Shown in pieces: positions 9,124 to 57,792 of a stretch of DNA of 64,000 nt. Both the position numbers and the translations under genes were made by a program. The stretch comes from Anaeropeptidivorans aminofermentans. Its GTDB lineage: Bacteria > Bacillota > Clostridia > Lachnospirales > UBA5962. Position 1 is the stretch's first letter. Each line of letters begins with the position of its first letter. Where the stretch lies: contig NZ_OW711693.1 in assembly GCF_940670685.1 (NCBI RefSeq), positions 372,001 through 436,000 on the forward strand, given 5' to 3'. The notes beneath the pieces are model-generated. The model searched no databases. It saw only the letters and a list, made by a program, of their open reading frames with translations, and had not been told where the DNA came from.

Positions 9124-9350
9124 CAGTGAAATAGCCTTAAGGCAGTAACAAAAATCTATTTTTCATAAGCGGCTTAATATAAGAGAAGCGCTTATATTAA
9201 GCCATTCATAGCCAGCAAAGCTGAAAAGACCTTTGTTAACTATAAGAGACGTTCATCTGAAAACACTTTTGAAGCTTCACTATAAGTATTTTCAGGTTCA
9301 TTAAATATAAAATATATGATTTTTGTTACTGTAATTAAACTATTTTACTA
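9124..9350. repeat. Family B long variant between the EIIA and EIIB genes
   Basis: 227 bp: left end CAGTGAAATAG after TA, right end AACTATTTTACTA before TA. Inner arms GCAGTAACAAAAATC / GATTTTTGTTACTG, plus inner hairpins around GGCTTAATATAAG and TGAAAACACTT. It splits an otherwise tightly packed PTS operon and starts within 3 bases of the EIIA stop. Nearly the same variant recurs at 51339-51551 and 57242-57469. Confidence 0.85.
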
Positions 9351-11492: not shown

Positions 11493-11936
11493 CAGTAAAC
11501 AGTTTCAGGAGAGTAAAAAACCTATTTTTATAAAGGGCTTAAATATATAGAAGCGCTTATAGTAAATTTCAAGTTAAACAATAACAAAACCGTATAGTTT
11601 CCGAAGGAAATCCGTGTTTTTGTACGAAGCGAACTTGGAAAAGAATACGGGCCGTAAGCCTGAAAATCTTTTTTAAGTGAGTGTTTTCCTATCGTTATCA
11701 AACTTGTTTTTTATGTTGGTAACGATGAATTCGTGGCAAATAGGTTTTTGTTACTTCTTTATAAGAAATTTACTATATACTAAGCCATTCATAGTCAACA
11801 AAATTGAAAAGCTCTTTATTGGCTATAAGGGGACGTTCACCTGAAAATACTTTTACAGCTTCACTGTAAGTGATTTCAGGTTCACTAAATATAAAATATA
11901 AGGTTTTTGTTATTCTAGTTAAATTATTTTACGATA
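11493..11936. repeat. Family B long variant carrying a nested family B element
   Basis: The outer element runs from the sequence just after the EIID stop to TTAAATTATTTTACGATA. Its left half (CTATTTTTATAAAGGGCTTAA...AGAAGCGCT) and right half (TACTAAGCCATTC...GGTTTTTGTTATT) match the copy at 9124-9350, but are interrupted at AAGCGCT-TA by the element at 11560-11775. Confidence 0.75.
11560..11775. repeat. Family B element inserted inside another family B element
   Basis: 216 bp from TAGTAAATTTCAAG to AAGAAATTTACTA. TA precedes (11558-11559) and follows (11776-11777). Removing the element with one TA restores GCGCTTATACTAAGCC, which matches GCGCTTATATTAAGCC in the intact copy at 9124-9350. Confidence 0.88.
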
Positions 11937-30371: not shown

Positions 30372-30449
30372 TAGTAAATTTAAAGTTAAACAGTAGCAAA
30401 GCCGTATATTCACACAGGCTTTTGCTGCTTCTTTATATGAAATTTACTA
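30372..30449. repeat. Family B element, internally deleted
   Basis: 78 bp: TAGTAAATTTAAAGTTAAACAG at the left, TTTATATGAAATTTACTA at the right, TA on each side. The central hairpin block is missing. Confidence 0.75.
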
Positions 30450-39499: not shown

Positions 39500-39757
39500 T
39501 AGTAAAATAGTTTTAAGATAGCAGCAAAAACCTATTTTTCATAAAGGGCTTATAGTAAATTTAAAATTAAACAGTAACAAAACCGTATATTCATGTAGGC
39601 TCAAAAATGTAATGTTTCTAAAGGAAATCAGTGTTTTTGAGCCTTTAATGAATAGGTTTTTATTCCTTTTTTATAAGAAATTTACTATAAATCTATAGAA
39701 ATGTTTATATTAAGCCATTTAAAATACACGGTTTTTGTTCCTATAATTAAAGCTTTA
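39500..39757. repeat. Family B element with nested insertion, between scaffold and capsid genes
   Basis: Left end TAGTAAAATAGTTTTAAG after TA; right part CGGTTTTTGTTCCTATAATTAAAGCTTTAC overlaps the last codons and stop (39747-39749) of the scaffold gene. Interrupted at GGGCT-TA by the element at 39553-39687. Confidence 0.7.
39553..39687. repeat. Family B element nested in another, inside the phage operon
   Basis: 135 bp from TAGTAAATTTAAAATTAAAC to ATAAGAAATTTACTA with TA at 39551-39552 and 39688-39689. Contains the hairpin GGCTCAAAAATG...GTGTTTTTGAGCC. Confidence 0.88.
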
Positions 39758-43489: not shown

Positions 43490-43624
43490 TAGTAAATTTA
43501 AAGTTAAATAGTAGCAAAACCGTATATTCACGAAGGCTTAAAAATGTACCGTTTCCGAAGGAAATCCGTGTTTTTGAGCCTGCCGGGAATAGGTTTTTGC
43601 TGCTTCTTTATGATAAATTTACTA
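43490..43624. repeat. Family B element upstream of the phage module (reference copy)
   Basis: 135 bp, close to consensus: TAGTAAATTTAAAGTTAAA ... GGCTTAAAAATGTACCGTTTCCGAAGGAAATCC hairpin ... GCTGCTTCTTTATGATAAATTTACTA, TA on both sides. A second left-end fragment TAGTAAACTTCAGG stands at 43474-43487. Confidence 0.88.
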
Positions 43625-51890: not shown

Positions 51891-52181
51891 TGGGTAATAG
51901 CTCCTTTAACTTAATTTATGTTATATTGTTTGCAGAAGCTGTAAAAATATTCAATAATAGAACTGCTCTAAAGGAAGCTTTATATAAAGCTATATTAGAA
52001 TGCCGGATATTTTTCAGTCAATACATAAGGCCGTAAGTAAGTAAAGTTTATTTAACAGGGGTAGGTTTATGATGAATTTTAACAGCGCTTATAAAAAGCA
52101 AAAATAAAAAATAGACATAAGATAAATTAATCTTATGCCTATAGCAAATTAAAGTTAAACAGGAACAAAACCGTATATGCC

Positions 52182-52290
52182 TTGAATTCATATGAAATAG
52201 CAGTATTGTCAATTTGCTTTTTTTTATTATGTCTCCTAAAGTCAAATGCTTATAAAGGTATAAAAGCAAATTGATTATATGAGGATTCAA
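52182..52290. repeat. Family C segment inside the composite element
   Basis: TTGAATTCATATG ... GGATTCAA ends with inner arms GTCAATTTGCTTTT / AAAAGCAAATTGA. Matches 57563-57674 and 53477-53580 in reverse. Confidence 0.7.
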
Positions 52291-52426
52291 AAATGTGTTT
52301 TAGAAGAAACATAATAAATCATCTTTGTGAAACTGCCTTTATTTGATTTTATATATGAAAGCCCCGGGTCTGTTGCGGCATAAAGGCAATTACACTATGT
52401 TTCCGAAGGAAATCCGTATTTTTATA

Positions 52427-52531
52427 TTATAATAATTCTCAGCTTAAATAGGAATAAAACAATTTCATTTTATTTGAATGAATGGTTTGGTGAAATTTAT
52501 TCTTCCTTACTGTTTAAAATGAAATTGTCTA
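52427..52531. repeat. Family D insertion inside the composite element
   Basis: 105 bp TA-flanked block with arms ACAATTTCATTTTA and TAAAATGAAATTGT. Absent from the otherwise similar element at 11560-11775, which reads TTTTTGTACGAAGCGAAC across the site. Confidence 0.7.
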
Positions 52532-52757
52532 TACGCGAACTTGGAAAAGGATACGGGCATAAGCCTGCAAATCTTTTTAAGTGAGCGTTTTCTTATGGTT
52601 ATCAAACTTCTTTTTTATGTTGGTAAAGATGAATCCACAGTGCATCGGTTTTCGCTACTTCTTTATAAAAAATTTACTGTATTTACTTAAATTATTGGCG
52701 TAAAAATGGATTTAATCTTGCATCTTATAGGGACCTATTTTATAGAATCAGAGCCCA

Positions 52758-53476: not shown

Positions 53477-53580
53477 AGTATACAGTTAATTTGCTTTTAC
53501 ACCGCTGTAAGTATTTGGCTTCAGAGGGCATCAAATAAGAGAAAAGCAAATTGACAATGCTGCTATTTCTTTTGAATTCA
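53477..53580. repeat. Family C element upstream of ada-alkA (second of two)
   Basis: GTTAATTTGCTTTTACACC ... GAAAAGCAAATTGACAATG then TTTTGAATTCA. It abuts the first copy and ends about 20 bases before the ada-alkA ribosome binding site. Confidence 0.7.
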
Positions 53581-53613
53581 ACTATCAAACTGCTTCAAAA
53601 AGGAGGTTACGCT

Positions 53614-55074
53614 ATGGCGGATAATAAAGATGCATTGTATCTGGCGTTTAAGGCGAAAGATGCGCGCTTTGACGGGCGTTTTTTTGTAGGAATATCCTCT
53701 ACGGGCATCTATTGCCGTCCGGTTTGCCGGGCGAAACAGCCTAAAGCCGAAAACTGCAACTTTTATGCCACTGCGGCGGAAGCTGAGCAAGCAGGATACC
53801 GCCCCTGCCTTTTATGCAGGCCGGAGCTTGCCCCGGGAACTTCAATTACAGATGCTACTGCCAATTTGGTTTACAGGGCGGCAAGGATGCTTGAAAAAAA
53901 CTGCGGAAGCGGTCAAAGCTTAGAGGAAACCGCAAAGCGGCTGGGCTGTACCGGCAGGCATTTGCGCCGGGTATTTACGGCGGAATATCATGTCTCTCCC
54001 ATTCAATATTTACAAACATGCAGATTGCTTCTTGCTAAAAACCTGCTTACAGATACGGATTTGGCGGTGCTGGAAGTTGCAATGGCATCAGGCTTCGGCA
54101 GCCTTCGCCGCTTCAATGACCTTTTTAAAAAGCAGTACAAGCTTTCCCCCACGGCTTTACGAAAAGAAATGAAAGAAGAAAAAATCCATAACGGAAGCAT
54201 TACCTTGGCATTAGGCTACCGCCCCCCTTATCCTTGGGAAGAAATGCTTCGCTTCCTTGCCGGGCGCGCAATAAAGGGAGTGGAACTTGTAAAAAACGGG
54301 GCCTACAGGCGAACGGTCTGTCTGAAAAATTCGGAAGGAAAGCATCTATACGGCTGGGTAAAAGTAGACCACAATCCTAAAAAGAACGTATTAAATGTTA
54401 CTGTAAGCGAAGCCTTGCTTTCGGTGCTTCCTCAAGTGTTAGCCAGGATAAAGCATTTATTTGACTTATATTGTGACCCTGATGAGATTCATGAAACCCT
54501 TCAAATAATGAACCATATCAGGCCCGGCCTTTGGGTTTTGGGAACAAGGGTGCCTGGGTGCTTCAATGCCTTTGAAATGGCGGTTCGGGCTGTTTTAGGG
54601 CAGCAAATTACTGTAAAAGCCGCTAGCACATTAGCGGCAAGGCTTTCTGAACATTACGGCAGGCCCATTGAAACAGGAATGGACGGGCTAACTTACACCT
54701 TTCCCTTGCCGGAAGAGGTATTTGCCTTAGGAGAAAATCTTCAAAATTACTTTGGCCCTTTAGGTATTATAGCTTCCCGGTCAAATACTATTTATGAATT
54801 GGCGAAGGCATTTGTACAAGAAGAAATTGATTTTGACTATCCGGCAAGTCCTGAGGAAGAAATGAAAAAGCTCCTGTCCATTAAGGGTATTGGCAGCTGG
54901 ACGGCTCAGTATATTGCTATGCGGGCTATGGAATGGCCCGATGCTTTTCTTGAAACAGACGCAGGGGTAAAAAAAGCATTGCAGCCCTATACACCAAAGG
55001 AATTATTGAAAATGGCAGAAGCATGGCGTCCGTGGCGCAGCTATGCCACAATGAGTCTATGGAACACTCTATAA
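53614..55074 (+). CDS. Ada regulator fused to AlkA DNA-3-methyladenine glycosylase
   Basis: 486 aa from the ATG 7 bases after AGGAGG. Order: Ada N-terminal Zn domain about 1-75 with four Cys (IYCRPVC, RPCLLC), which accepts methyl groups from phosphotriesters; AraC-type HTH about 85-185; AlkA N-terminal domain about 200-310; HhH-GPD glycosylase about 320-486 with IKGIGSWTAQYIA and catalytic Asp449 in ETDAGVKKAL. It both senses methylation and excises alkylated bases. The Ada C-terminal methyltransferase is absent; the separate ogt gene 11 bases downstream fills that role. Confidence 0.95.
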   Translation: MADNKDALYLAFKAKDARFDGRFFVGISSTGIYCRPVCRAKQPKAENCNFYATAAEAEQAGYRPCLLCRPELAPGTSITDATANLVYRAARMLEKNCGSGQSLEETAKRLGCTGRHLRRVFTAEYHVSPIQYLQTCRLLLAKNLLTDTDLAVLEVAMASGFGSLRRFNDLFKKQYKLSPTALRKEMKEEKIHNGSITLALGYRPPYPWEEMLRFLAGRAIKGVELVKNGAYRRTVCLKNSEGKHLYGWVKVDHNPKKNVLNVTVSEALLSVLPQVLARIKHLFDLYCDPDEIHETLQIMNHIRPGLWVLGTRVPGCFNAFEMAVRAVLGQQITVKAASTLAARLSEHYGRPIETGMDGLTYTFPLPEEVFALGENLQNYFGPLGIIASRSNTIYELAKAFVQEEIDFDYPASPEEEMKKLLSIKGIGSWTAQYIAMRAMEWPDAFLETDAGVKKALQPYTPKELLKMAEAWRPWRSYATMSLWNTL

Positions 55075-55085
55075 GGAGGTATCTT

Positions 55086-55625
55086 ATGTATTATAAAACA
55101 ATATACCCATCCCCCTTGGGAATAATTACTATGGCAAGCGACGGAGATAATCTTACCGGCCTATGGATTGAGGGGCAAAAATATCATGGGGGCACTATTT
55201 TCGAAGATATGGCAGAAAATAAAGACATGCCTATATTTGACACCGTGAAAAAATGGCTGGACAGGTACTTTGCCGGCGAAAATCCCCTTATTTCAGAATT
55301 ACCCTTAGCCCCCGCCGGAAGTGATTTTCGCAAAGAAGTATGGCATATTTTATGTGAAATACCTTACGGCGAGGTTATAACTTACGGCGGTATCGCTAAA
55401 AAAATGGCGGCTAAAATGAACAAAGAAAGCATGTCAAGCCAAGCGGTAGGGGGAGCGGTGGGTCATAATCCCATATCGATTATTATCCCCTGCCATCGGG
55501 TTGTTGGGTCAAACGGAAGCTTGACGGGATATGCCGGCGGCATTCATACAAAGATAAAACTGCTTGAACTGGAAGGCGTGGATATGTCCCGCTTTTTTGT
55601 GCCTTCAAAAGGTACGGCTCTTTAA
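55086..55625 (+). CDS. ogt: Methylated-DNA--protein-cysteine methyltransferase
   Basis: 179 aa from the ATG after AAGGAGG. Active Cys136 in the IIPCHRVVGSNGSLTGYAGG motif; preceding helix-turn-helix IPYGEVITYGGIAKKM. Removes O6-alkyl groups from guanine in a single-turnover reaction. In an operon with ada-alkA; presumably induced by methylated Ada. Confidence 0.96.
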   Translation: MYYKTIYPSPLGIITMASDGDNLTGLWIEGQKYHGGTIFEDMAENKDMPIFDTVKKWLDRYFAGENPLISELPLAPAGSDFRKEVWHILCEIPYGEVITYGGIAKKMAAKMNKESMSSQAVGGAVGHNPISIIIPCHRVVGSNGSLTGYAGGIHTKIKLLELEGVDMSRFFVPSKGTAL

Positions 55626-56166: not shown

Positions 56167-56419
56167 CAGTAAATTTAAAGTGAAACAGGAACAAAACCGC
56201 GTGTCCGCTTAGGCTCAAAAATGTGATTTCACTATGTTTCCTGCGGAAACCTGTGCTTTTGAGTAATAAAAAAGGGTCTTTTACTTAGAGGGCAAAGCCG
56301 AAGCGGTTCAAATAAGCCCCATAAACTTAGGGAGCGCCGATTCAGGATTTATACAAGTAAACCCCAGTTTTGTTCTGTAGCGAATCGTCTTTTATTCCTT
56401 CTTTATAAGAAATTTACTG
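56167..56419. repeat. Family B element, 253 bp variant
   Basis: CAGTAAATTTAAAGTG to ATAAGAAATTTACTG, TA on both sides. The usual centre is expanded by a stretch with CAAAGCCGAAGCGGTTC that I do not see elsewhere. Confidence 0.75.
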
Positions 56420-56548: not shown

Positions 56549-56839
56549 ATGAGCGCAAAAGCTTATCTTGAAATCACAATGGCAATAAACCCAGAGAATC
56601 GGCCGGCAGCAGCTAAGGTATATACTGATTATCGCGGACCGTTTCTATCCCAGATTAAGGGAGCTGTGTCTAAAGAACTCCTTATTCGTGATGAGGATGT
56701 ACAGGTATTGCATGGCTTTGACAGCGTTGAGAATGCAAAGGACTATCTTGACAGTGAAATGTTTAAAAACGATGTTGTCGTTGGCTTAAAGCCCTTATGG
56801 AGTGCGGACCCTGAGGTTAAGATTTACACAGTAGCTTAG
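56549..56839 (+). CDS. Small conserved-looking protein, unknown function
   Basis: 96 aa with a strong AACGGAGGTG ribosome binding site. Pattern of strand-helix-strand units (YLEITMAINPENRPAAAKVYTDY, VQVLHGFDSVENAKDYLDSE, VVVGLKPLWSADPEVKIYTV) suggests a small alpha/beta dimeric-barrel fold similar to ABM/EthD proteins. I do not recognise a named family. Confidence 0.75.
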   Translation: MSAKAYLEITMAINPENRPAAAKVYTDYRGPFLSQIKGAVSKELLIRDEDVQVLHGFDSVENAKDYLDSEMFKNDVVVGLKPLWSADPEVKIYTVA

Positions 56840-56845
56840 GTTTTT

Positions 56846-56884
56846 ATCCGGAAACCGGGGGATTATCCTCCGGTTTTTAAAGTT
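56846..56884 (+). terminator. Intrinsic terminator after the 96-aa gene
   Basis: AACCGGGGGATTATCCTCCGGTTTTTAAAG: short GC stem and T run, 20 bases after the stop codon. Confidence 0.65.
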
Positions 56885-57241
56885 TATTCAGCTAAGAGCA
56901 TTTTAAACAGTAAGGAAGCTGTGGTTTTGTCATATCATTATATTAGAGTAAATTTCTTATAAAGAAGTAAAAAACCTATTTACTGCGGATTCATCGATAC
57001 CAAATAAAAAACAAGTTTGATAAGGATAAGAAAACGCTCACTTAAAAAGATTTGCAGACTTCCGCCTGCATCCTTTTCCAAGTTCGCGTATAGACAATTT
57101 CATTTTAAACAGTAAGGAAGAATAAATTTCACCAAACCATTCATTCAAATAAAATGAAATTGTTTTATTCCTATTTAAGCTGAGAATTATTATAGTATAA
57201 AAATACGGATTTCCTTCGGAAACATAGTGAAATTGCCTTTA

Positions 57242-57469
57242 TAGTAAATTTCGCTGAAGGATGTAATAAAAATCTATTTTTCATAAACGGCTTAAACATA
57301 TAAAATTCCTATATTTAAGCCATTTACAGCCAACAAAGATTAAAATATCTTTGTTGGCTGTAAGGGGGCGTTCGCCTGAAAACACTTTAACAGTTTCCCT
57401 GTAAGTGTTTCCAGGTTCACTAAGCATAAAATATACGATTTTTATTACTGTTTCATTTAAAATTTACTA
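57242..57469. repeat. Family B element with a demonstrable TA target duplication
   Basis: 228 bp from TAGTAAATTTCGCTG to TTTAAAATTTACTA. TA stands at 57240-57241 and 57470-57471. The matching site in the left composite, read in reverse, is GCCTTTATGCCGC; here it is GCCTTT-TA-element-TA-TACCGT. Confidence 0.92.
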
Positions 57470-57562
57470 TATACCGTAATAGACATAAGCCTTTCAATAT
57501 ATAAAATCAAATAAAGGCAGTTTCACAAAGGCGTTTTATTATATTGCTTCTAAAACGCATTT

Positions 57563-57674
57563 TTGAATCCTTGTATAGTCAATCTGCTTTTATACCTTTA
57601 TAGGCATTTGACTTTAGGGGACATAAAATAAAAGAAAAGCAAATTGACAATGCTGCTATTTCATATGAATTCAA
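57563..57674. repeat. Family C segment inside the right composite element
   Basis: TTGAATCC ... GAATTCAA with inner arms GTCAATCTGCTTTT and AAAAGCAAATTGAC; reverse of 52182-52290. Confidence 0.75.
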
Positions 57675-57792
57675 GGCATATACGGTTTTATTACTGCTTC
57701 AATTTAAATTTACTATAGAGTAAATGAGATTGTCTTACTGCTGTTTAAAATGAAAATTACCATAGTTAACTAAAGCAGGAAAGGGCAGATAT

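Follow-up and report, generated by a model that had tools for sequence, protein, structure and literature searches.

Two composite repeats lie in inverted orientation within the region analyzed here, and the question that they raise is whether the one marked difference between them records the insertion of a mobile element, and if so by what rule and by what enzyme. The window (the whole 64,000-bp stretch that was analyzed) lies on a single contig of 3.757 Mb (bases 372001-436000), with the genome estimated to be 97% complete. An initial annotation, made from the sequence of the window, described the two composites as alike save for an extra 228-bp element in one of them, and global alignment bears this out. 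The reversed composite at 52142..52679 (bounded by TA at 52140-52141 and 52680-52681) matches that at 56946..57715 (outer TA at 56944-56945 and 57716-57717) throughout, apart from small indels and a single 230-bp gap in the 52142-52679 copy. The gap comprises exactly the 228-bp palindromic element, a member of subfamily I (57242..57469; ends TAGTAAATTT / AAATTTACTA), plus one TA, and the filled/empty comparison places the two TAs of the target duplication at 57240..57241 (left) and 57470..57471 (right). The empty site, near 52380, reads ...AATTGCCTT-TA-TGCCGC... in the reversed copy (i.e., GCCTT-TA-TGCCGC), and the filled site reads ...AATTGCCTT-TA-[TAGTAAATTT...AAATTTACTA]-TA-TACCGT... (i.e., GCCTT-TA-[element]-TA-TACCGT). 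Thus, the TA duplication proposed earlier stands, but the left flank had been given with one T too many (GCCTTT-TA for GCCTT-TA). Other unfilled composites in the genome read GCCTT-TA-TACCG or similar, which makes insertion the derived state. Between the two composites, at 53551-55625, are a gene whose 507-aa product resembles an Ada-AlkA fusion (DNA alkylation repair) and then an Ogt-like methyltransferase gene, both named by eye from their translations rather than by family search.

For the direction of change, unfilled paralogues within the same genome were used as empty sites; we searched for places where the two flanks of an element from ~0.6 Mb of sequence adjoin and the element is missing. 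Such unfilled paralogues were recovered for nine elements. Of these, 745014 and 429240 (the latter in the window) represent the same insertion, leaving eight independent insertions. At seven of the eight, the flanks are usually separated by exactly 2 bases, corresponding to one dinucleotide that is mostly TA; the exception, 242436, has a spacing of 3 in a run of A. The junction is TA in 3/3 paralogues of 745325, and in 3/4 for both 429240 and 745014. A 135-bp class element at 39553..39687, residing inside a subfamily II copy (outer left end 39500), has 16 unfilled paralogues; spacing is 2 in 8 of these, with TA in all 8 (genome 411551). The weakest cases are a 216-bp element, also inside a subfamily II copy (11560..11775; genome 383558), for which 28 unfilled paralogues were recovered with a spacing of exactly 2 in 26 and a junction of AT in 16/26 and TA in 10/26, and insertion 1945303, with TA in only 2/7. 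Some unfilled paralogues have CA, TT or AT at the junction rather than TA, as would be expected from diverged copies or alignment shifts.

The same dinucleotide flanks elements across the family. Examples in the window are a 135-bp class element (43490..43624), a short 78-bp element (30372..30449) and a 253-bp element (56167..56419; ends CAGTAAATTT / AAATTTACTG), all TA-flanked; alignment also delimits a subfamily II copy of the 228-bp class (9124..9350; ends CAGTGAAATAG / CTATTTTACTA). TA is present on both sides of 83/98 perfect short elements, which were identified by a pattern of their own ends that does not require the outer TA, and of 45/62 elements in a relaxed set found by the core alone. 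Identical flanks of length 2 occur at 46 elements of the relaxed set, and those of length 3 at 2. The target around the insertions is symmetric and TTATAA-like, T-rich before the TA and A-rich after it. Comparison of these sites shows, as far as sequence can tell, that the copies, whose ends are inverted (TAGTAAATTT or TAGTAAAATAG), insert at TA with one TA remaining on each side; duplication of TA and insertion of an element bringing its own TA on one side would have an identical outcome. Insertion at TA is the rule of IS630/Tc1-mariner transposases.

The family is large. In the census, which combined ~0.65 Mb of genome stretches with whole-genome pattern counts, the genome yielded 308 + 310 matches to the end motif TAYAGTAAATT compared with 6 + 5 for a reversed-pattern control, which excludes chance and indicates ~300 elements. 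The initial estimate of about 20 copies in 64 kb is plausible given 15 loosely paired elements and 16 + 12 AGTAAATT end motifs in the window, and the genome search that it proposed for the 228-bp copy yields ~40 relatives of the element as a whole. Elements span ~78 to 770 bp and fall into several subfamilies, with dominant size classes of 130-139 bp and ~230 bp, and are found nested in one another. Open reading frames cover 73% of the sample, and 48/53 elements lie wholly outside them; no ORF of ≥100 aa overlaps the 228-bp element. Short, non-coding, with terminal inverted repeats, many dispersed copies and filled/empty target duplication, the elements have the attributes of MITEs. Divergence within subfamily I has a median of ~7% (closest pair 2%), that within subfamily II is ~15% (closest pair 9%), and a younger 139-bp group reaches up to 97% identity. 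The sample contained no identical copies. Such divergence is consistent with a family that has little or no activity at present.

The distribution of the family is narrow. Searches of 39 relatives, 246 genomes of the order and 391 of the class (sets that partly overlap; the relatives are from the same family and order) recovered it in no other genome; two weak matches in relatives, of 26-29 bp, do not represent elements. No elements were found in phage, plasmid or viral-contig collections or at the neighboring-gene loci of 80 relatives, and a literature search with TAGTAAATTT returned no MITE paper among the matches listed. In two relatives, a 235-aa gene lies on the other strand between a small 96-aa gene and a malY-like gene; at window positions 56549-57792 the composite element occupies its place. 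The nearest named homologues of the neighboring gene are in Firmicutes such as Anaerosolibacter, along with MAGs, and the genome is assigned to that phylum accordingly.

These observations can be read in more than one way. A single filled/empty pair gives no direction, and the 228-bp difference could therefore represent loss, by precise excision or deletion, from a composite that was filled to begin with. However, at least five composites that are mutually diverged are empty at the same base, and the two known filled composites share one insertion, so the insertion is the derived state; furthermore, the ends are exact, in contrast to the imprecise ends that the initial annotation had named as the sign of a deletion. 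We consider loss to be extremely improbable. The second filled composite, from genome position 744714 onwards, carries the same 228-bp insertion within other outer flanks, indicating that the composite was moved or copied whole, and its right half contains an extra, private insertion, a TA-flanked subfamily II element of 130 bp, for which three empty paralogues read TA. Thus, the composite came first and received the 228-bp insertion, after which it was moved or copied and, last, gained the further insertion. The palindromes might instead function as structured RNAs, i.e., as hairpins for processing or regulation that selection maintains between genes. Their folds are very stable (for the 228-bp element, -78 kcal/mol on the + strand and -91 kcal/mol on the - strand, z ~ -11 and ~ -12, with an outer stem and three inner hairpins), they are intergenic with an excess between convergent genes (12/47 vs. 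37/332 gene pairs), and ten pairs have compensatory changes, most of them between subfamilies, where several pairs in both the ends and the inner stems are changed on both sides. Within subfamilies, however, G.U and A.C departures from pairing are equally common (22/21 and 41/39 cells), so copies decay without strand preference and show no sign of selection on a one-strand RNA; this equality is as expected of decaying DNA palindromes. In addition, the elements of the window have no match in Rfam, and the insertion history and genome-restricted distribution fit a mobile burst. RNA selection was rejected for want of strand bias in the pairing departures, and we regard it as quite improbable. Complementarity of the arms was evidently maintained in the source copies, possibly through selection for folding or palindrome correction in replication. 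Elsewhere in the window, at 2633-2758, there is an FMN riboswitch with a strong Rfam match.

Mobility could also have been of another kind. IS200/IS605-type (Y1, HUH) transposases recognize hairpins, and the elements may be REP/REPIN-like palindromes moved as single strands by such an enzyme. The genome has 26 Y1 transposase matches, many of which are nearly identical, so such an enzyme is, or was until recently, active, and the palindromes are strongly foldable. Yet the IS200 copies have the right end GTCATGATT or GTTATGATT, without TAGTAAATTT and without TA duplication, whereas the palindromes are flanked by TA left and right, end in inverted repeats and occupy a symmetric target, features that Y1 elements are not known to give. 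IS200/Y1 was rejected as the mobilizer because its ends differ from those of the palindromes, and this explanation appears very improbable. The IS200-type matches themselves form several near-identical groups (e.g., genome 1986701 and 2163058). A further alternative, which we judge unlikely, is that the mobilizing enzyme is TA-specific but not of the IS630/Tc1 type, and that the whole three-hairpin foldback is needed for movement, since the inner stems too changed in compensation between subfamilies.

The reading that we favor, and hold to be very probable, is that the palindromes constitute a large family of non-autonomous DNA transposons (MITEs) moved in trans by a TA-specific transposase of the IS630/Tc1-mariner type. 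No DDE_3 (IS630) protein and no DDE_Tnp_1 (IS4/IS5-type) transposase match was found in the genome, where matches to the IS630 model are all below the cut-off. Weak matches to this model at 1305-1307 kb were discarded, being well below the family cut-off and in frames that look like broken IS3-type genes; the ~1305-1307 kb interval contains two broken transposase genes next to each other, both with an in-frame stop and an IS3-type look (by translation, not family search). The early observation that none of the copies carries a transposase holds in the sample, in which no transposase was found between paired ends at spacings of 0.7-4 kb; seven bracketed proteins were scanned, of which six belong to ordinary cellular families and one has no match. 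IS630-type genes are present in 37/196 genomes of the order, but matching ends were found at none of the 30 IS630-type loci examined from the order, so that the initial suggestion to look for an IS630-type transposase with the terminal repeats of the family led to no candidate in the genome or at these loci. The parent is lost, is elsewhere in the species, lies in the few percent of the genome possibly missing, or is of a kind outside our searches. Few bacterial MITEs have a known autonomous parent (PMC2229807); having one is usual but not required.

Parentage by an IS630/Tc1-mariner element is likely, as judged from the TA duplication and the ends. Under the favored reading, a TA-specific DDE transposase, probably of this type, would have bound the ends in trans and integrated copies at TA, and its source may have been an element since lost from the lineage or never resident on the chromosome. 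Subfamilies would have arisen as new source copies took over, each with its arms kept complementary, and inserted copies would drift afterwards. We conclude that an orphan MITE family targeting TA has undergone a burst specific to this lineage. As a case from a Firmicutes lineage it is well resolved: one genome contains ~300 elements, the target rule can be read from its internal empty sites with no need for sequenced strains, and the sequence of events follows from the nesting. The elements also supply substrates with which the missing TA-specific transposase could be sought. The case leaves the general view of bacterial MITEs as it was.

Several known families offer comparisons. RUP elements of Streptococcus pneumoniae are short, non-coding and intergenic, with about a hundred copies, TA termini and TA targeting, and are prone to insertion into other mobile elements (PMC2229807). 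The present family is likewise short, non-coding, intergenic and TA-targeting, and its members nest in one another. However, RUP is linked to IS630-Spn1 and is 107 bp long with ends like those of the resident IS630, whereas the family described here spans ~78 to 770 bp with ends TAGTAAATTT, and no IS630 was found in the genome. Correia/NEMIS elements of Neisseria, at >100 copies per genome, have inverted ends and TA termini with target duplication (PMC2229807, PMC10969869). Correia elements, to which the present family is likened by features, not by sequence, have reported promoter, IHF and RNase III functions. ERIC/IRU elements of enterobacteria are ~127 bp and intergenic with TA termini, with up to 711 copies reported in Photorhabdus (PMC2229807, PMC10969869). 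The comparison here again concerns features, and ERIC spans whole bacterial families, in contrast to a family found in one genome only. The palindromes thus work like RUP, Correia/NEMIS and ERIC, and represent a new sequence family of TA-terminated MITEs.
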